Assembly: GCA_021775935.1 (NCBI GenBank)
Contig: JAJFGY010000032.1
Coordinates: 1 to 56,052, forward strand
Direction: 5' to 3'
DNA from: Alphaproteobacteria bacterium
GTDB taxonomy: Bacteria; Pseudomonadota; Alphaproteobacteria; Parvibaculales; Parvibaculaceae
DNA length: 56,052 nt
Under the pieces are notes generated by a model. That model saw nothing but the letters and a program-made list of their open reading frames with translations. It was not told where the DNA came from and made no database searches. Position 1 is the first letter of the stretch. Every line of letters begins with the position of its first letter. A program made the position numbers and the translations under genes. Positions 1 through 16,566 of this stretch are shown one piece after another.

Positions 1-3000
1 TGGCAATACGGCTGTCTTTGCTGCGCATTACGGTACAGGTGCTGTGGTGATTAACGCAGCTGCTGTAGATGCCACTGCTGGCGGCAATGGTGTGTTCGCG
101 CGCAGCTATGGCACGGGCTTGAGCGTGACAGCGTCTGGAGCAGTTGCGGGCGCAAATAACGGTGTCTACACGGTGCATCACGGGTCCAGTGATACCAACA
201 TTAATGTCGTGGATGTCTCTGGTGGCACCCAAAGTGCGATCAATGCGCGCCATCAGGCGGCAGTCATCAATGGCGATCTCAACATCACCTCCCTGGGTAC
301 GCTCTCCGGCAATCTCAATGGGATCTATGCTCTGCATAGCGGAACGGGCGCGATCAATATCAATGCAGTGGCGGCCACGGGGGCAGTAGCGTCAGGGATC
401 GTTGCGCGCAGCACGAACGCGGCCAATATGAGCGATATCAGTGTTATCACGACAGGTGCGGTCAGTGGGGATAACGGTGGCATCTCCGTGTCGCACTATG
501 GTGGTGGGGCTGTAACGATCAACACGGCTTCCGTGTCAACTGCCAGCGGAAATGGCGTCTTTGGGCGTACCTTTGGCACTGACCTCTCCGTAACAACATC
601 TGGCGCTGTTGTGGCCGATGGCGTTGGCGTCTATGCGAACAATCAGGGCACCGGTATGTCCACCATCAATGTGACGGATGTGACCAGTGCGGCATCAGAT
701 GGCGTCCTTGCGATAGCAAGTGGCGGAGACCTGAACGTCACCGCTACTGGAACAGTCACTGGCTATACCGGCCTCTCAGCGTTGAGCACAGGTGCTGGAG
801 CGGTCACGATTAATGCGGTGGATGTTACCGGAACAACGGGCGATGGTCTTTTTGCGAATATTGTTGGCACCACGAGCAACGCAAACATCACCGTCACAGG
901 GGAGGTGACGAGTGGGGCCCTTAACGGCATTCGAGTTCGTCACGTTGCGCAAGGTGGCGCGCTGAACGTCAATACGGGGAAGGTGACCGGTGGGGTCACC
1001 GGCATTCGGGTGAATAGTCTCTTTAATCTCGGAACCGATGTGAATATTACATCAACAGGTGCGGTGCAGGGTGGCTCATACGGCATTGCAGCGACCAGTC
1101 TTGGGACCGGCTCTCTTGTGATCAATGCAACATCTGTCGCCGGGACCAGTCGCAACGGGATCCGCGCAATCAGCCAAAATGCGGCCAGCCAGGGCCTGCG
1201 CATCACCGCGACTGGAACGGTGAGCGGCGGCTGGGATGGGATACATGCGCAGCAACGCGGGACAGGCGCGCTTGCCCTCAATGTCGCAGATGTCACCAGT
1301 GCAACCGGGATTGGCGTTTATGGCAGCAGCTATGGCGCGGGGTTCACGATCACAGCGTCGGGAGGTGTAACCGGGGCAACCGACGGTGTTCGTGCAACTC
1401 ACTTGGGGACGGGTGCGCTCACCATTGATGTGGCCTCGGCGACAGGCACAACAGGGACTGGGCTGGTCGTTCAAAATTACAATTACGCGAACATGGGCGA
1501 TGTTTTGATCACCGCTTCCGGTCATGTCAGTGGCGCTAACTTCGGCATTCTTGCGACCAGCCTCGGCAGTGGTTCGATGACGATCGATGCGGCCTCTGTT
1601 ACCGGCCAGTCGCAACACGGCATTTCTGCCCAGACCGTTTTTACCACAAGCACGGGGCTTTCGGTGAGTGCGTCGGGACTCGTGTCCGCTGAGAGTTTTG
1701 GCATCAATGCCCGACATGGCGGTAGCGGCTCCATTAGCATCAATGCAACCGATGTTACCAGCGCGCGGGAGAGCGGTGTTTATGCGTATGGCACCGCCTA
1801 TGTTACTTCTGGTGCAAACATCACCACAACGGGAACCGTTGCAGGGTATGTCAATGGTGTTGAGGCACGCCTTTTGGGTGCGGGCGATCTGATGGTCAAC
1901 GCGGTCAATGCGTCAGCAGATCTCTATGCCGGGGTGCGGACGTTGCAGGGTTATGGGACGGCGGGTCGCACGCGCGTCACTACGTCCGGCGATGTGAGTG
2001 GTGGAAAGTGGGGAATTTTCTCACGGAACAATGGAACTGGTGGAGCGGAGATTGCCGTCAGCGGTGCCGTGAGTTCCCTTGATACCGGCATCAGGGTTTA
2101 TGCTCACGGCAGCAACCAGATCAATATCGCTAACGGCGGGTCTGTGACCGGCGGCGGCCATGCCATTTTTACGAGCGGTACCACTGATCGAAACAGTGAT
2201 GATATCGTCACGAATGCCGGTTTGGTGAGTGGTCTTGTCGACCTCGGTGGTGGGGCGAATGCGTTCAACAATTCCTCCAGTGGTGTCTTTCAGACCCTGG
2301 GGACCGTCATGGTTGGGGCGGGCAATGCGCTCACCAATGCGGGCACCGTGTCACCGGGGGGGTCCGGCACCATCCAGACCACCACGCTGACCGGCAATTT
2401 CGCACAGACCGCTGGCGGGGTTTTCGCGGTTGATGTGGATGGGGGCGCTACGAGTGCCGACCGTCTTAATGTGAGCGGAACAGCGAACCTTGCCGGGAGG
2501 GTTGCTCTCGACTTTACGAACCTGGGGACAGCTCAAGGGGTTGTCACGATCCTGTCCGCTGCAGGAGGTGCGACAGATGATGGTCTTAGCGCGACGGGAA
2601 CCCCTGTTGCTGTCAACGCAACGCTTTCATATCCGAACGCCAATGATGTCGCGCTGACCTATGCAGTGGACTTTACACCGGCGAGTTTGGCGGTGGGGCT
2701 GACTCCTAACCAAGAGACGATTGGCGATGGATTGAATGCGCTCTTCGGAGCAGGAGCAGGTGGTGCCATTGCTACGGGCCTGCTGGGAATTACAGACCCA
2801 GTAGCCTACAAAATGGTGCTCGATCAATTGCAGGGCGAAGCCTTTCTTGACCAGGTTGGTAAGATCCTTGGCGGCAATCATTTCTTTGTTCAAAACCTGC
2901 TCTCCTGCCCATCGAGATTGGACGGCGCTGAAGTTCAGGTGGCAGGTGACGAGTGTATCTGGGGCCGAGTTGAGGGGCGCGCGGTAGATACAGAGCGGAC

Positions 3001-8133: not shown

Positions 8134-8319
8134 TCGAACAAACACTCTTGGCTTTCTCGTCTCGGACAATATGGACCGGGTATTCCGCCAAGTTTCAATC
8201 TGACAATGTCGCCAGAAGAAGCGGAGGGGGTCCGTAAAACAGATCCGAGTATATCGACCCTGTTTCTTTAGGCCGCAGAGAGGCTTTTTTTCTTCAGCAA
8301 ATGAGGCTAGGACTTCAGG

Positions 8320-9762: not shown

Positions 9763-9818
9763 TTGCAGCAAGCCGTCTGGTATCTGATCTAACCAAACAC
9801 ATTGGCCGTAAAAAGGTC

Positions 9819-10544
9819 ATGAAACACAACCTGATACCACGTGCCTCCGGCATCGCCCTGATCGCATCGCTGATCTGTGGCGGGGCATTGGCGGGCGACG
9901 ACAGTGATACAGTAGAACATCCTTCTGTTGAGCTTCTCTATGGAAACAGTATTGAGTTCGACATCATGCGAAATGGTGCGCGAGTCGGCTCGCACAATGT
10001 TGCGTTTGAAAACAAGGGGGACGCTTTATCTGTCGTCACGGATTTCCAGCTGGAAGTGGGCGCTCTCTTTATCACTTTCTTTGAGCTGACATACCGCTCA
10101 GAGGCAGTTTGGCGCGATGGGCAGATGGTCTCGCTTTGGGCCCGGACAGACCAGAATGGTGATGTTGGCACTGTGGAAGCCCAACTCGCCGACGGTGTTC
10201 TCGCTGGAGAGGGGCCGAACGGCGTTTTTGCCGCCCCGCTGGGAACATACCCAACCAATCATTGGAATGCGGGCGTGCAGAACAGTACGCGACTGATCAA
10301 TACCATCACTGGCCGGGTCAGCGACGTACGGCTTGTACCGATGGGCATTGAACAGGTTCAGACGGAACGTGGCCTTATTGAAGCGACGCGGTACAGGTAT
10401 GAAGGCGCTATCGAAAACGAAGTTTGGTATGACTCTCAGGGTCGCTGGGTGCGTATGCAGTTCCCGGGTGGCGACGGCTCGCTTGTAGAATTGCAGTGCC
10501 GGAAGTGTTTTCCGAGTGACAGAGCGGAGGCCGATGATGAGTAA
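9819..10544 (+). CDS. DUF6134-like secreted protein
   Basis: 241 aa, signal peptide (LIASLICGGALA), IEFDIMRNGARVGSHNVAFEN... typical of DUF6134; located in front of SDR and NTF2-like genes. Confidence 0.7.
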   Translation: MKHNLIPRASGIALIASLICGGALAGDDSDTVEHPSVELLYGNSIEFDIMRNGARVGSHNVAFENKGDALSVVTDFQLEVGALFITFFELTYRSEAVWRDGQMVSLWARTDQNGDVGTVEAQLADGVLAGEGPNGVFAAPLGTYPTNHWNAGVQNSTRLINTITGRVSDVRLVPMGIEQVQTERGLIEATRYRYEGAIENEVWYDSQGRWVRMQFPGGDGSLVELQCRKCFPSDRAEADDE

Positions 10545-11283
10545 GATTGTCTGGATCACCGGTGCGGGCAAAGGAATTGGTCGCTCGCTCGCCCTGAGAA
10601 TGGCTTCTGAAGGCTGGGTCGTTGCCGCCAGTGCGCGGACCGTCGCGGATCTCGAAACCCTTGTTTCTGAAAGCGGAGGTGGTCGCGTCCACGCGTTTCC
10701 GCTCGACATCACAGACGTTGAGGCCAATGGACTTGTGTTGGGCGAGATTGAAAGGAAGTTAGGGCCTGTCGATCTCGCGGTCTTGAATGCTGGGACGCAC
10801 AGACCGATGAGCGCCGCTGATTTTGACATTGGGACCGTGCGTGGGCTGGTCGAGACAAATTTGATGGGAACGGTGAACGGCCTTGGCGCTCTCCTTCCGC
10901 TTTTCCGAAGCCGGAAGCAGGGGCGCATTGCTGTCGTATCATCGGTTGCAGGGTATCGGGGACTTCCCACGTCTGCAGCTTATGGTGCGACAAAAGCCGC
11001 TCTTATCAATTTGTGCGAGGCGCTGAAACCAGAACTGGACAGGGATGGTGTTTCCTTGTCTCTCATCAATCCGGGCTTCGTTGAGACACCCCTGACTGAC
11101 GAGAATGAATTCCCGATGCCGTTTCTTGTTACCTCTGAGGCGGCAGCAGACAGCATCTACAAGGGACTTATGGCGGAAAAGTTTGAAATCGTCTTCCCGT
11201 GGAAGTTTGCAATCGTTATGAAGCTTTTGCGCCTCCTGCCTAACCGTCTTCTGTTTGCTCTCACATCTCGCATGGTGACCTGA
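10534..11283 (+). CDS. SDR family oxidoreductase
   Basis: TGAGKGIG nucleotide-binding motif, NAG, YGATKAAL. The true start is probably ATG 10534 or 10537 rather than GTG 10516. Confidence 0.9.
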   Translation: MMSKIVWITGAGKGIGRSLALRMASEGWVVAASARTVADLETLVSESGGGRVHAFPLDITDVEANGLVLGEIERKLGPVDLAVLNAGTHRPMSAADFDIGTVRGLVETNLMGTVNGLGALLPLFRSRKQGRIAVVSSVAGYRGLPTSAAYGATKAALINLCEALKPELDRDGVSLSLINPGFVETPLTDENEFPMPFLVTSEAAADSIYKGLMAEKFEIVFPWKFAIVMKLLRLLPNRLLFALTSRMVT

Positions 11284-11699
11284 TGACAACAGCTGTCAAA
11301 CGCTACGCTACCTTTATGGAAAACCTCAGAGAGGAAACGCTTCCTGAGATCTCCCAATTTGTCGCCCCCGACGTTCTGTTTCGCGATCCGTTTAATGAGG
11401 TGATCGGGATCAAGAAAATGCAGAGCATATTTGCCCATATGTATGAGACGATGGGGGATGTTCGTTTTGACATTCTCCATCATGCCATGGATGGAAAGAC
11501 AGGGCTTCTTTACTGGCGGATTGCCGCAACGCTCAGAGGCAAGCCGTGGGCGTTCGAAGGAATGACAAAGGTTGAGTTCAATGATGAGGGACTTGTGGTC
11601 GCCCATCTGGACCATTGGGATGCAGCGCGGGAATTCTACGAGCATTTCCCGGTCATTGGGTGGTCCCTTAGAGCCATCCGGCGAAAGATAGCGCTATAG
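11283..11699 (+). CDS. Nuclear transport factor 2 / SnoaL-like protein
   Basis: 138 aa; VAPDVLFRDPFNEVIGIKKMQSIFAHMYETMGDVRFDI is a SnoaL-like fold pattern; overlaps the SDR stop codon. Confidence 0.75.
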   Translation: MTTAVKRYATFMENLREETLPEISQFVAPDVLFRDPFNEVIGIKKMQSIFAHMYETMGDVRFDILHHAMDGKTGLLYWRIAATLRGKPWAFEGMTKVEFNDEGLVVAHLDHWDAAREFYEHFPVIGWSLRAIRRKIAL

Positions 11700-11719: not shown

Positions 11720-12889
11720 TTACGCATTGGTGATCGTGAATTGGCCCACATTTATGCGGCCAGCCCGGAAGCCCCCTTCGCAGTAGCAAAGATAGAAAAG
11801 CCACATGCGCTTGAACCGCTGGTCAAAGCCCATATCCGCAATATTGGGCCATGCCGCCGTGAATTTCTCACGCCATTGCATGAGCGTGTCTGCATAAGAC
11901 GAGCCGAAGAAATGACTGTCCCCCAGGGTCAGACCTTCTCGGGACATCTCCAGTGCGAGTGCTTCTTTTGACGGCAGCATGCCGCCAGGAAATATGTAGC
12001 GCTGGATGAAATCGATGCGCCGGCGATATTTCTCAAATGCATTCTGATCGATTGTGATGATCTGGAGCGCTGCTCGCCCGCCGGGAGCGAGCCGTTCTTT
12101 CAATACGCGAAAATAGGTTGGCCAGTTCTCCTCACCGACCGCCTCGAACATTTCGATAGAAACGATCTTGTCGAACTTGCCCTCTACATGGCGATAGTCC
12201 TGCAATCGAATATCGACTTTGGCTGATAGCCCCTGCGTGTCCATTCTCTCTCGGGCGAACTGCGCTTGCTCCTGTGAGAGCGTCAGCCCCACGACATCTG
12301 CGCCATAGTCACGGGCCGCGATTTCGGCAAAACCGCCCCAACCGCATCCGATTTCAAGAACCCGATCGCCAGGTGAAAGATCGATGGATTTCGCGAGCTT
12401 GTGGTACTTGCGGTCCTGTGCGGCCTTTATGTCACTTTCGTCTGGGTCGAAGAGGGCTGATGAGTAGGTCATAGAAGGGTCCAGCCAGGCGCTGTAGAAC
12501 TCATTCCCCAAATCATAGTGAAAAGCGATGTTGCGTTTGGACCCTGCAAGCGTGTTGGCGTTTTTTCTGTGTGCCATTCTTCCGATGCGTTCGATGACCG
12601 AAGAAAGAAATCTGTTCGGACGCAGGGCTTCCAGATTGGCGACGCCCAACTCGATGAGCTGGGGAAGTACATCCGTCGACCAATCGCCATCCATGTAGGC
12701 CTCCGCCAATGCCAAATCACCCTTCAAAAGAATTTTTGGAACACAGGCCAGGTTATGGATGTCGACATGCGCAGACGGCCCCGGGTGTGCGCCGGAGACA
12801 GAATGTTTCGATCCGTCAGGAAATCTCACGGTGAGTGAGCCGTGCTGTATCTTATTCAGAAACCGGCAAATCGCGATTTTGGCGAGCAA
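11720..12889 (-). CDS. Cyclopropane-fatty-acyl-phospholipid synthase family SAM-dependent methyltransferase
   Basis: NIAFHYDLGNEFYSAWLDPSMTYSSALF, VLEIGCGWGGFAEIAARDYGADVVGLTLS. Start proposed at TTG 12889 (AGGAG 7 nt upstream) rather than 13012, which lies inside the DUF1365 gene. Confidence 0.9.
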   Translation of the reverse strand: MLAKIAICRFLNKIQHGSLTVRFPDGSKHSVSGAHPGPSAHVDIHNLACVPKILLKGDLALAEAYMDGDWSTDVLPQLIELGVANLEALRPNRFLSSVIERIGRMAHRKNANTLAGSKRNIAFHYDLGNEFYSAWLDPSMTYSSALFDPDESDIKAAQDRKYHKLAKSIDLSPGDRVLEIGCGWGGFAEIAARDYGADVVGLTLSQEQAQFARERMDTQGLSAKVDIRLQDYRHVEGKFDKIVSIEMFEAVGEENWPTYFRVLKERLAPGGRAALQIITIDQNAFEKYRRRIDFIQRYIFPGGMLPSKEALALEMSREGLTLGDSHFFGSSYADTLMQWREKFTAAWPNIADMGFDQRFKRMWLFYLCYCEGGFRAGRINVGQFTITNA

Positions 12890-12912
12890 TGAATTTCTCC
12901 TGGTGCGCAGAG

Positions 12913-13710
12913 TTAGTCCGCAGCTGGATGCAGCGTCGTGCGTGTTTGGTGTGACGCGGTGATGGGCTTTGATGCGGGGGTGCGGGCAACTAGTGGAACG
13001 CCCTTGAGCCAAAGACGAAGCGCTTCGAAATGTATCCCTGCGGTGACTTTCAGCGTCATAAGGGGATACTGAAAAAATGCCTGTGCCAGTTTTCCATCCG
13101 TCAAAGAGTGGCGCACGCCCGCGAAAGACGCGGACATCACTGATCCTTCTTCGTCAAGAAGCGTTATGTGAACATGAATGCTCTCTTCTGGCACGTTCAT
13201 GTCGAATTTGTATCTCGCCTCCATTTCAGTGAAGGGTGAGACGCTCAAGTTTTTCGGTGAGGCTTGTTGGAAATCGTCGCTACCGTGATCTGTTGGGGTG
13301 GGGAGAACGTAAGTGTGTTTCTCTCCAAAGGTGTTGTTCACTTCATGGAGCGTTGCGATAAGGCTTCCGGCGCTGTCATAGCAATAATACACTGACAGTG
13401 GGTTGAAGACGTACCCGAGAATACGCGGATAGCAAAGCAGGCGCACCGACACATCTTCAGGCTCGAAACCTGCCTGGATGAGATGAGCCATAACCCATGC
13501 TTTCAGGCCATTCTCATCGCCATTTCCGTGATCCTTTTCCCAGAAAGAAAAGAGACCGGGCCTATTCACGCGAAACAAGCGGTTGGTTGAGTCAATTTCT
13601 TCCAACTCATCAAGGTCGATGAGAGTGGAAAAGACTCGGTACTGCAGTCGATGGCGCTTGGGGCGCCGCCGCGTGTGAAGAACACTGCCTTTGTATATGC
13701 AGGATTGCAT
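12913..13710 (-). CDS. DUF1365 domain-containing protein
   Basis: From ATG 13710: MQSCIYKGSVLHTRRRPKRHRLQYRVFSTLIDLDEL..., PRILGYVFNPLSVYYCYD is a DUF1365 signature. Confidence 0.9.
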   Translation of the reverse strand: MQSCIYKGSVLHTRRRPKRHRLQYRVFSTLIDLDELEEIDSTNRLFRVNRPGLFSFWEKDHGNGDENGLKAWVMAHLIQAGFEPEDVSVRLLCYPRILGYVFNPLSVYYCYDSAGSLIATLHEVNNTFGEKHTYVLPTPTDHGSDDFQQASPKNLSVSPFTEMEARYKFDMNVPEESIHVHITLLDEEGSVMSASFAGVRHSLTDGKLAQAFFQYPLMTLKVTAGIHFEALRLWLKGVPLVARTPASKPITASHQTRTTLHPAAD

Positions 13711-13712
13711 GA

Positions 13713-15065
13713 TCAATCCGCCGCCAATGGCAGGCTGACACTTGTTGAGATGCGGGAGGGCTGGTCTGTCTGCCCCCATGGACGTTGATCGCCGGAGATT
13801 TGTTCTGCTACGGCAAGGCCAGCCTGAAGGGCGTCTTCGTGAAACCCATAGCCAAAATAGCTGCCGCAGAACCATGTATTGTTGTTGCCCTGCAGATTCC
13901 AGAGATCTTTTTGCGCCGCCATGGCTGCTTTGTCGAAAAGCGGATGCTGATAGGAAAATTTTTGAAGAATGGAACCGTCTTTCGGGGCGACATGCGGGTT
14001 CAATGTTACAAACAAGGGGTGCCTGTCATCGATGCCCTGTAGCTGGTTCATCCAGTACGTTACGGTGAGATTCTTATCTTCAGTGCCCGCGCCGCCTTCG
14101 ATGTAGTTCCAGCTAGACCAGACCCGTCGCTTCTTGGGCATCAATTGTTCGTCGGTATGAAGATAGGTCTCGTTTTCTGTGTATTTGAATGCACCGAGCA
14201 AATTTCGCTCTGCGTTGCTGGGTTTCGACAGCAGCGATAAGGCGTCATCAGCGTGGGTGGCAATCACGACTTCATCAAAGTGATGTCGGTCTCCGGTCTC
14301 CGTCTCGACATAAACACTATCTTGTTGTCGGTGGATTTCTGTCACGGCTGTCTGTCTGATTTTGTCTGCGTATGGGGCGGTAAGACGGCTCACATATTCC
14401 TTTGAGCCTCCGGCAACGGTGCGCCATTGAGGCCGATCAACAAGCTTCAAGAGTCCATGGCTCTCGAAAAACCGCACAAAAGCTGCCAATGGATAGTTCA
14501 GCATGTCTCGAGCGGTGGTTGACCAGATCGCCGCGCCCATTGGGAGAATGTGATCTCGCGTGAAGGCGTCTGAATATTTGTTCGCGTTTAGAAAAGCGCC
14601 AAGGGTCAGATCAAGATTCTCTGATTTTCCGGCCAAAGACGGGGCGGTCCTGTAGAACCGAAGGAGATCGGAGAGCATCGCCCAAAAACGCGGATTGACC
14701 ATGTTGCGCCGTTGCCCAAGGAGACCGTTCAGCCCGGTGCCGGAATACTCAAACTTCCCTGAATCGATAGATGCGGCAAATGTCATATTGGACGCTTTGG
14801 TTGGAACGTTGAGGTGATCAAACAAGGCGACAAGATTTGGGTAGTTCATCTCATTGTAGACGATAAAGCCTGTGTCCACGGGTAATGGCTGTTCTGGGGT
14901 GCCGGCGTTTACCGTATTGGAATGACCGCCAATATGGTCTCCGGCCTCAAAGAGTGTGATGTCATGAGAGCGGTTCAACAGCCATGCTGCAGACATGCCC
15001 GCTATGCCAGAACCGATAATTGCAATTTTCTTTGGAGTTGCTGATAGGGTTGCGTCGTAGGGCAC
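13713..15065 (-). CDS. NAD(P)/FAD-dependent (amine oxidase-like, COG2907-type) oxidoreductase
   Basis: IAIIGSGIAGMSAAWLLNRSHDITLFEAGDHIGGHSNTV dinucleotide-binding motif; followed directly by DUF1365 and CFA-synthase genes. Confidence 0.9.
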   Translation of the reverse strand: MPYDATLSATPKKIAIIGSGIAGMSAAWLLNRSHDITLFEAGDHIGGHSNTVNAGTPEQPLPVDTGFIVYNEMNYPNLVALFDHLNVPTKASNMTFAASIDSGKFEYSGTGLNGLLGQRRNMVNPRFWAMLSDLLRFYRTAPSLAGKSENLDLTLGAFLNANKYSDAFTRDHILPMGAAIWSTTARDMLNYPLAAFVRFFESHGLLKLVDRPQWRTVAGGSKEYVSRLTAPYADKIRQTAVTEIHRQQDSVYVETETGDRHHFDEVVIATHADDALSLLSKPSNAERNLLGAFKYTENETYLHTDEQLMPKKRRVWSSWNYIEGGAGTEDKNLTVTYWMNQLQGIDDRHPLFVTLNPHVAPKDGSILQKFSYQHPLFDKAAMAAQKDLWNLQGNNNTWFCGSYFGYGFHEDALQAGLAVAEQISGDQRPWGQTDQPSRISTSVSLPLAAD

Positions 15066-15116
15066 TGAGTCATTTTCCTTGAGGTTGTGAGCTCAATACG
15101 GGCTAAAATGACGTTT

Positions 15117-15201
15117 GGATCATTGACTGACCAAATTCCGCTGGGATGTGAAATCGGCTGGTTTGGTGGAGTGATCCAAACCCGCAGCTCTTGCGTATCT
15201 A
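15117..15201. promoter_or_regulatory. Divergent pair of RpoE/ChrR-type ECF sigma promoters
   Basis: Plus strand: TGATCC (15172-15177)-N18-TATCTA (15196-15201). Minus strand: TGATCC (15122-15117)-N18-TATTGA (15098-15093). Both begin TGATCCAAAC. TGATCC matches the -35 I recall for alphaproteobacterial RpoE in the ChrR system. Confidence 0.75.
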
Positions 15202-15205
15202 ACGC

Positions 15206-15913
15206 ATGAACTTGAAACGGGAAATTAAACTGTCACCTGCAGCACCCTCATATTTGGCGCTGGTGGTTAACAATATGCACGCACATGCGGGCCAGGGAGG
15301 GCTTGAGCAGTCGATGGCAAAATCCGGTGAGGATGCGTTTAGTGCGGACGACCTTGTGCTGTGCCTGCAGGCTGTAGGCGCACGTCAAGACCGGGCCGCC
15401 TTTCGTGTTCTCTTTGACCATTTTGCGCCTAGAATAAAAGCCTACATTATCAAGCTGGGGTGCTCGCATCAGCAGGCGGAAGAACTTGCGCAAGAGACCA
15501 TGACCAAGGTTTGGAACAAGGCCGGCCAATTCGACGCTGCGAAGGCTGCGCCCTCGACCTGGATGTTTCGGATCGCACGGAACCTTAGAATTGATGCGTT
15601 CCGACGGGAGAACCATCCTGAATTTGACCAGAATGACCCAAGCCTGATTCCGGCGGAAGAACGACCTGCAGACCAGGTTGTGGAGCAAAAACAGTCTGAA
15701 CGTCAGCTGTTGGCCGCAATGGCTGAGTTGCCAGAAGAGCAGATGCACCTGCTTCGTCTTTCCTTTTTTCAGGATATGTCGCATGGGGCGATCGCTGATC
15801 ATCTCAATATTCCGCTCGGGACAGTCAAGTCGAGGCTGAGGTTGGCGATGGTGAAGCTGAGAAAGAAGATTGATGACAATGACCAGATGCAAGCAGACGG
15901 GTTAAGCCGATGA
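15206..15913 (+). CDS. rpoE: ECF RNA polymerase sigma factor (RpoE/ChrR-associated group)
   Basis: Sigma-70 region 2 (LFDHFAPRIKAYIIKLGCSHQQAEELAQETMTKVWNKAGQFDAAKAAPSTWMFRIARNLRIDAFRRE) and region 4. The start is probably downstream (ATG 15275 or 15314) given the promoter position. Confidence 0.92.
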   Translation: MNLKREIKLSPAAPSYLALVVNNMHAHAGQGGLEQSMAKSGEDAFSADDLVLCLQAVGARQDRAAFRVLFDHFAPRIKAYIIKLGCSHQQAEELAQETMTKVWNKAGQFDAAKAAPSTWMFRIARNLRIDAFRRENHPEFDQNDPSLIPAEERPADQVVEQKQSERQLLAAMAELPEEQMHLLRLSFFQDMSHGAIADHLNIPLGTVKSRLRLAMVKLRKKIDDNDQMQADGLSR

Positions 15914-16566
15914 GAACGTCCCATCATATTCCAGATGAAATGTTGCTTGCTTATGCGGCGGGCAGCGCCCCTGAGGCGTGGAGCCTAATTGTTGCGACAC
16001 ATCTTTCGCTCTGTTCGGATTGCAGGGCTGTGGTGGGCAATACCGAGCAGATTGGTGGAGAACTTCTTGATAGTTTGACACCTGAGACGCTTTCTGAGGA
16101 TGCATTTGATCTGCTGATGCGCGAGATTGACAGTCAGGCCGGAAAACAGGAGCTGCCCAAAGCTCCTTCAACGCAAATACCGTCTGTACTTCCAGAGCCT
16201 CTGCGGTCCTATGTGGGTGGAGATCTGCATGCGCTGAAATGGCGGCGTTTGGGCAAAGGCGCTTTTCATATTCCGATCGCGACGAAAGATCAAAGCGCTC
16301 AGGCCAGACTTCTCAAAGTTCCAGCGGGAAACCCTGTGCCTATGCACGGTCACAATGGGGAAGAACTCACCCTTGTGTTGACCGGATCCTTCACGACGCA
16401 TCAAGGTAAGTTTCAGCGCGGTGATATTGAAGCCGCCGATGACAGTGTGGAACATATGCCGGTTGCTGGCCCGGAAGAAGACTGCATATGCCTTGCGGTG
16501 ACAGACGCGCCGTTGAAGTTCAAGAGCCTCGGAGCGAGGCTGGTGCAGCCATTTATCGGGATCTGA
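15910..16566 (+). CDS. chrR: ChrR-family zinc-dependent anti-sigma factor with C-terminal cupin
   Basis: N-terminal HHIPDEMLLAYAAGS and zinc motif H-L-S-L-C-S-D-C; C-terminal cupin VPMHGHNGEELTLVLTGSFTT. ATGA overlap with the sigma gene. Confidence 0.93.
   Translation: MRTSHHIPDEMLLAYAAGSAPEAWSLIVATHLSLCSDCRAVVGNTEQIGGELLDSLTPETLSEDAFDLLMREIDSQAGKQELPKAPSTQIPSVLPEPLRSYVGGDLHALKWRRLGKGAFHIPIATKDQSAQARLLKVPAGNPVPMHGHNGEELTLVLTGSFTTHQGKFQRGDIEAADDSVEHMPVAGPEEDCICLAVTDAPLKFKSLGARLVQPFIGI

Follow-up and report, generated by a model that had tools for sequence, protein, structure and literature searches.

ECF11 sigma factors recognize the promoter consensus TGATCC-N16-CGTA, which was determined by ChIP-seq in Pseudomonas syringae and by primer extension in Shewanella (PMC5507510, PMC4336711). 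The P. syringae PSPTO_1043/1042 and Shewanella oneidensis RpoE2-ChrR systems resemble the locus described here in their TGATCC-N16-CGTA promoters, their autoregulation and their cfa/photolyase/SDR targets; unlike it, they belong to Gammaproteobacteria and have their target genes in separate loci (PMC5507510, PMC4336711). In Rhodobacter sphaeroides, where the Pos19 promoter reads TGATCC(N15)GCGTA and the photolyase gene is a direct RpoE target, the RSP_1091-1087 operon adjoins rpoE-chrR and both have RpoE-dependent promoters. The UfaD and UfaO proteins of this bacterium are needed for the loss of ChrR under singlet oxygen, which closes a positive loop (PMC3818230, PMC6852236, PMC7380195). The chemistry of UfaD, UfaO and UfaM in furan fatty acid synthesis has been published. 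A further parallel is offered by Streptomyces SigR'/SigR, which differs in its ECF family and in its anti-sigma factor, RsrA, and in which an autoregulated promoter is combined with an upstream ATG giving an N-terminally extended sigma factor and a downstream start giving the short form (PMC5472188, PMC4921905).

The locus compared with these systems lies in a stretch of 56,052 nucleotides from an alphaproteobacterium of the family Parvibaculaceae (contig JAJFGY010000032.1), hereafter called the window. The following features are considered.

9785..9810, plus strand: third ECF11 promoter, with one mismatch (TGATCT-N16-CGTA), between the genes for photolyase and DUF6134; ATG 8 nt after CGTA
9819..11699, plus strand: operon behind the third promoter, with genes for DUF6134 (9819-10544), an SDR (10516-11283) and a SnoaL-like protein (11283-11699)
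11720..13012 (ORF limits), minus strand: ufaM / cyclopropane-fatty-acid synthase homologue (PF02353, E 1e-89)
12913..13710, minus strand: ufaO homologue (DUF1365; cf. RSP1090; PF07103, E 1e-77)
13713..15065, minus strand: ufaD homologue (flavin amine oxidase-like; cf. R. sphaeroides RSP1091), from family and gene order
15097..15122, minus strand: ECF11 promoter of the ufaD-ufaO-ufaM operon, -35 TGATCC 15122-15117, N16, -10 CGTA 15100-15097, exact consensus
15172..15197, plus strand: ECF11 promoter of rpoE-chrR, -35 TGATCC 15172-15177, N16, -10 CGTA 15194-15197, exact consensus
15206..15913, plus strand: rpoE (ECF11 sigma), long frame; ATG 15206, at the predicted +1, follows CGTA by 8 nt
15314..15316, plus strand: second in-frame ATG (M37), with GGGAGGG at 15295-15301 upstream; candidate start of a short RpoE
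15910..16566, plus strand: chrR, zinc anti-sigma factor with cupin-like C-terminal domain (TIGR02451, 220.8 bits against a cutoff of 124.5)

Searches of Pfam and NCBIfam identified an ECF sigma factor followed by a ChrR-family anti-sigma factor. The best PDB matches of the two proteins were R. sphaeroides RpoE (2q1z_A, E 8.5e-40) and R. sphaeroides ChrR (2z2s_B, E 7.3e-53), respectively. The zinc ligands of R. sphaeroides ChrR are His6, His31, Cys35 and Cys38 in one domain and His141, His143, Glu147 and His177 in the other. Ligands were kept in both domains of the window protein, as H6, H31, C35 and C38 and as H146, H148, E152 and H182, the latter four being invariant in a sequence alignment. 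Judged by its sigma factor, anti-sigma factor, zinc ligands and rpoE promoter, the locus is an ECF11 (RpoE-ChrR) system.

On the minus strand, genes for a FAD-dependent desaturase-like protein, a DUF1365 protein and a CFA-type methylase lie together, the start of the second being placed at an internal ATG directly after the ufaD stop codon. Family and gene order would make the products of these genes the counterparts of UfaD, UfaO and UfaM, which act in furan fatty acid synthesis. The locus thus resembles that of R. sphaeroides in its sigma/anti-sigma family, in the divergent ufaD-ufaO operon, in the promoter before each operon and in the predicted control of rpoH by RpoE. It differs in that ufaM is inside the operon of the window, whereas the R. 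sphaeroides ufaM (RSP2144) is located elsewhere, and in that the SDR and SnoaL genes are grouped with DUF6134 in a separate operon under a promoter of its own. In relatives of the same genus (L062-L065), ufaD-ufaO was present and, unlike in the window, no ufaM homologue was seen in the fetched locus.

The two main promoters face outward from a gap of 140 nt, bordered on one side by the flavin oxidoreductase gene (13713-15065, minus strand) and on the other by the sigma gene (from 15206, plus strand). An initial annotation had pointed out matched divergent sites at 15093-15201, and both are present there, each as an exact ECF11 consensus: the plus-strand site (15172-15201) reads TGATCC AAACCCGCAGCTCTTG CGTA TCTA and the minus-strand site (15122-15093) TGATCC AAACGTCATTTTAGCC CGTA TTGA. 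The -35 TGATCC, which the annotation had linked to the R. sphaeroides RpoE regulon, agrees with the published ECF11 consensus. The 18-nt gap to a TAT..A element described in the same annotation is literally correct; the element common to both sites and to the published consensus is CGTA, and TAT..A was discarded as the -10, the third T of TAT occurring in only about one third of homologous rpoE promoters.

The window contains exactly two copies of TGATCCAAAC, one per strand, and both lie inside the 140-nt gap. Given the base frequencies in the compared promoters, two promoters would share the four bases AAAC after both -35 elements with odds of about 1%. A special role for the shared 10-mer was rejected in view of these odds and of its not being kept by the relatives, and the identity of AAAC is probably a coincidence.

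Both exact sites of the window are intergenic and lie in this same short region, facing outward, while 0.03 matches to TGATCC-N16-CGTA per window are expected on both strands of a first-order shuffled sequence. Since this expectation is so far below the two copies found, two outward-facing exact sites in one gap cannot be ascribed to chance. In the whole genome, 10 exact copies were found among 69 matches to TGATCC-N18-TA, a pattern which gave 7 matches when read backwards. A genome scan with this looser pattern, as initially proposed for finding the regulon, would mostly return noise, because TGATCC is simply a common hexamer in this genome.

Conservation was examined across Alphaproteobacteria. 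In a first set of 20 relatives' loci, the rpoE promoter was found in nearly all and the ufaD promoter in most of those with a divergent ufaD neighbour. A larger set comprised 167 scored rpoE loci, after removal of known duplicates, and represented a wide range of families, Rhizobiaceae, Brucellaceae, Rhodobacteraceae and Caulobacteraceae among them; the sampled genomes did not include R. sphaeroides, and the best ChrR match in them was 70%. A site upstream of rpoE was present in 157 of these loci (145 exact, 12 with one mismatch), and a second site in 100 of the 126 loci with an adjacent divergent ufaD (55 exact, 45 with one mismatch), a recognisable second promoter being missing in the other 26. 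The exact consensus, its conservation throughout the class and the publications on R. sphaeroides support both earlier proposals, namely autoregulation through the promoter facing the sigma/ChrR operon and a direct tie between the sigma factor and the FAD-oxidoreductase/DUF1365/CFA operon. By these sequence comparisons the promoter pair is confirmed as real and as ordinary for the ECF11 family, and the divergent rpoE-chrR/ufa arrangement is a new example of the one known from R. sphaeroides.

Further sites point to a wider regulon. The third promoter of the window (9785-9810), which was absent from the initial annotation, recurs upstream of DUF6134 in the relatives that have this gene; the DUF6134 operon may be leaderless too, its ATG lying 8 nt after CGTA. 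A fourth site was found elsewhere in the genome, 68 nt before an rpoH-type sigma gene (L082, 1501-1526; contig C11:4627-4652), and 7 loci from 6 relatives carry an exact consensus at the homologous position. The conservation of this site suggests a cascade from RpoE to RpoH. Other intergenic TGATCY-N16-CGTA candidates (L087, L018 and L096; 1501-1526 in each) precede an SDR gene, a gene for septation protein A and an HpnN-like fragment, while some genomic copies of the pattern fall inside genes. Unlike in R. sphaeroides, no ECF11 promoter was found upstream of the photolyase gene, neither in the window (8134-8319) nor in six relatives.

The position of the rpoE start codon was then compared with that of the promoter. 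In a Sinorhizobium meliloti ECF promoter with a -10 CGTC, the mapped start site lies 9 nt downstream, so that the rpoE ATG is expected at or beside +1; the distance expected from CGTA to the rpoE start site is accordingly 8-9 nt, or about 4-5 nt when counted from the hexamer taken initially as the -10. An in-frame ATG at exactly +8 or +9 after CGTA was present in 132 of the 157 loci with an rpoE promoter (+8 in 68, +9 in 64), and 9 others had it at +10 to +12. Out-of-frame ATGs at offsets +6 to +11 numbered 3. Because the loci share common descent, such counts are not independent trials. When the 100 opposite ufaD promoters were taken as a control, a comparable ATG was in frame in 2 and out of frame in 5, and the background rate of in-frame ATGs in the same stretch was 2.7% per codon. 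No Shine-Dalgarno (SD) sequence accompanies the +1 ATG, the pairing energy with the anti-SD being that of random codons.

All 119 loci kept the rpoE frame open over 34 codons, compared with 21 and 55 for the other two frames; the first of these counts is partly built in, because the loci were chosen for open frames. In addition, the N-terminal extension had a dN/dS ratio of 0.60 when read in frame, compared with 1.11 and 0.97 for the shifted frames (21 independent pairs; Fisher p 4e-5), which points to a weak purifying selection on the extension of about 36 codons, in the rpoE frame only. The open frame and this in-frame constraint argue that the extension is translated. The predicted fold of the rpoE 5' region was less stable than those of shuffled sequences (z = +1.5), which gives no support to a structured 5' end. 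Among Alphaproteobacteria, leaderless genes are frequent: S. meliloti has 171 (all AUG) and Zymomonas 119. Taken together, these comparisons strongly suggest that rpoE is translated from a leaderless autoregulated transcript which adds an N-terminal extension. For the wider proposal that ECF11 rpoE is leaderless across Alphaproteobacteria, with a weakly constrained extension of about 25-40 residues and a stress-specific long isoform beside an SD-led short one, we regard the balance as even. The proposed leaderless rpoE is the new part of this work, the promoter layout being already known from Rhodobacter; no report of it was found in the literature searched, which misses most subscription papers.

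A different reading of the 140-nt gap would be that at least one of the sites is a chance match and that other promoters drive the operons. The 69 genomic copies of TGATCC-N18-TA and the intragenic TGATCY-N16-CGTA copies lend it some ground, but the full exact consensus occurs twice, divergent and intergenic, the same arrangement is found throughout the class, and no sigma-70-like promoter was seen in the region, including none for a constitutive short RpoE; this reading is hardly credible. It is also very improbable that the pair acts as a coupled unit, in which two polymerases would help or exclude each other at a fixed spacing. The -35 elements are indeed just 49 nt apart in the window, and the median in the relatives is 27.5 nt; the distances nevertheless extend from 10 to 138 nt, with one outlier at 917, and the sites never overlap. 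This range ruled out a fixed spacing between the paired promoters.

A more serious alternative, which we still consider unlikely, accepts that the promoters are real and RpoE-dependent but has translation begin exclusively at M37 (15314), the +1 ATG being incidental and the leader about 108 nt long. The SD preceding M37 is strong (pairing with the anti-SD of -10.9 kcal/mol), and it is the shorter form that the RpoE chain crystallised from R. sphaeroides matches. In L061, the closest relative outside the genus (site 2882-2907, minus strand), the promoter is kept, the +1 ATG is lost and only the short start is open, so that the extension would be dispensable there. An Aminobacter rpoE record is annotated with the short start, 146 nt after CGTA, despite an in-frame ATG at offset 8. 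There is also a precedent in the ECF16 sigma gene of Bradyrhizobium japonicum, whose transcription start site overlapped the annotated ATG and whose authors moved the start codon downstream. Against such a relocation in ECF11 stands the selection on the extension, confined to the rpoE frame; moreover, 132 of 157 loci have an in-frame ATG at exactly +8/+9, out-of-frame ATGs are nearly absent there, and nothing comparable is seen at the opposite ufaD promoter. The data did not support an SD common to all second starts, this signal being strong in the window and not in every relative, in a comparison biased by picking the minimum as the best internal start. Alongside the leaderless start, M37 could give a short RpoE form in the window. 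In Streptomyces, where the short form is made from a promoter of its own, the long form has been demonstrated and is an unstable Clp substrate, whereas in the window the two in-frame starts are known from sequence alone.

With the leaderless reading retained, the region is very probably the control centre of an ECF11 RpoE-ChrR stress switch with an autoregulated, probably leaderless rpoE. This view is built on the promoter matches and their conservation, the gene identities, the placement of the ATG and the selection on the extension. By analogy with R. sphaeroides, ChrR would hold RpoE until singlet oxygen or organic peroxide frees it. Free RpoE would then fire the two outward promoters of identical consensus, one amplifying rpoE-chrR and the other yielding UfaD, UfaO and UfaM, so that furan fatty acids could feed back on ChrR turnover; further targets of the same RpoE would be DUF6134-SDR-SnoaL in the window and rpoH in another part of the genome. 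The rpoE transcript is predicted to start at ATG 15206 or within a base or two. From this promoter placement at the ATG, the RpoE made under stress would most likely come from a leaderless mRNA and carry about 36 additional N-terminal residues; the short RpoE could be supplied by the SD-led ATG 15314. Transcription, the inducing signal, leaderless translation and the existence of two isoforms are predictions of this scheme.

The promoter pair adds another lineage to those with a well-studied singlet-oxygen switch, whose feedback wiring is confirmed here by sequence evidence; the placement of the start codon outweighs the pair in importance. If the leaderless reading is true, many annotated RpoE proteins of the group begin at the wrong codon, and structures and purified RpoE may represent just one isoform. 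In this model stress response, the leader of the sigma mRNA would then offer a point of control open to testing. RpoE output could be maintained even if the usual SD-led initiation were impaired, or the long form could be removed quickly. Public rpoE records already disagree on the start, which is downstream in Aminobacter and at or upstream of the promoter in Ensifer, where the annotated start is an ATG 1 nt before the -35.
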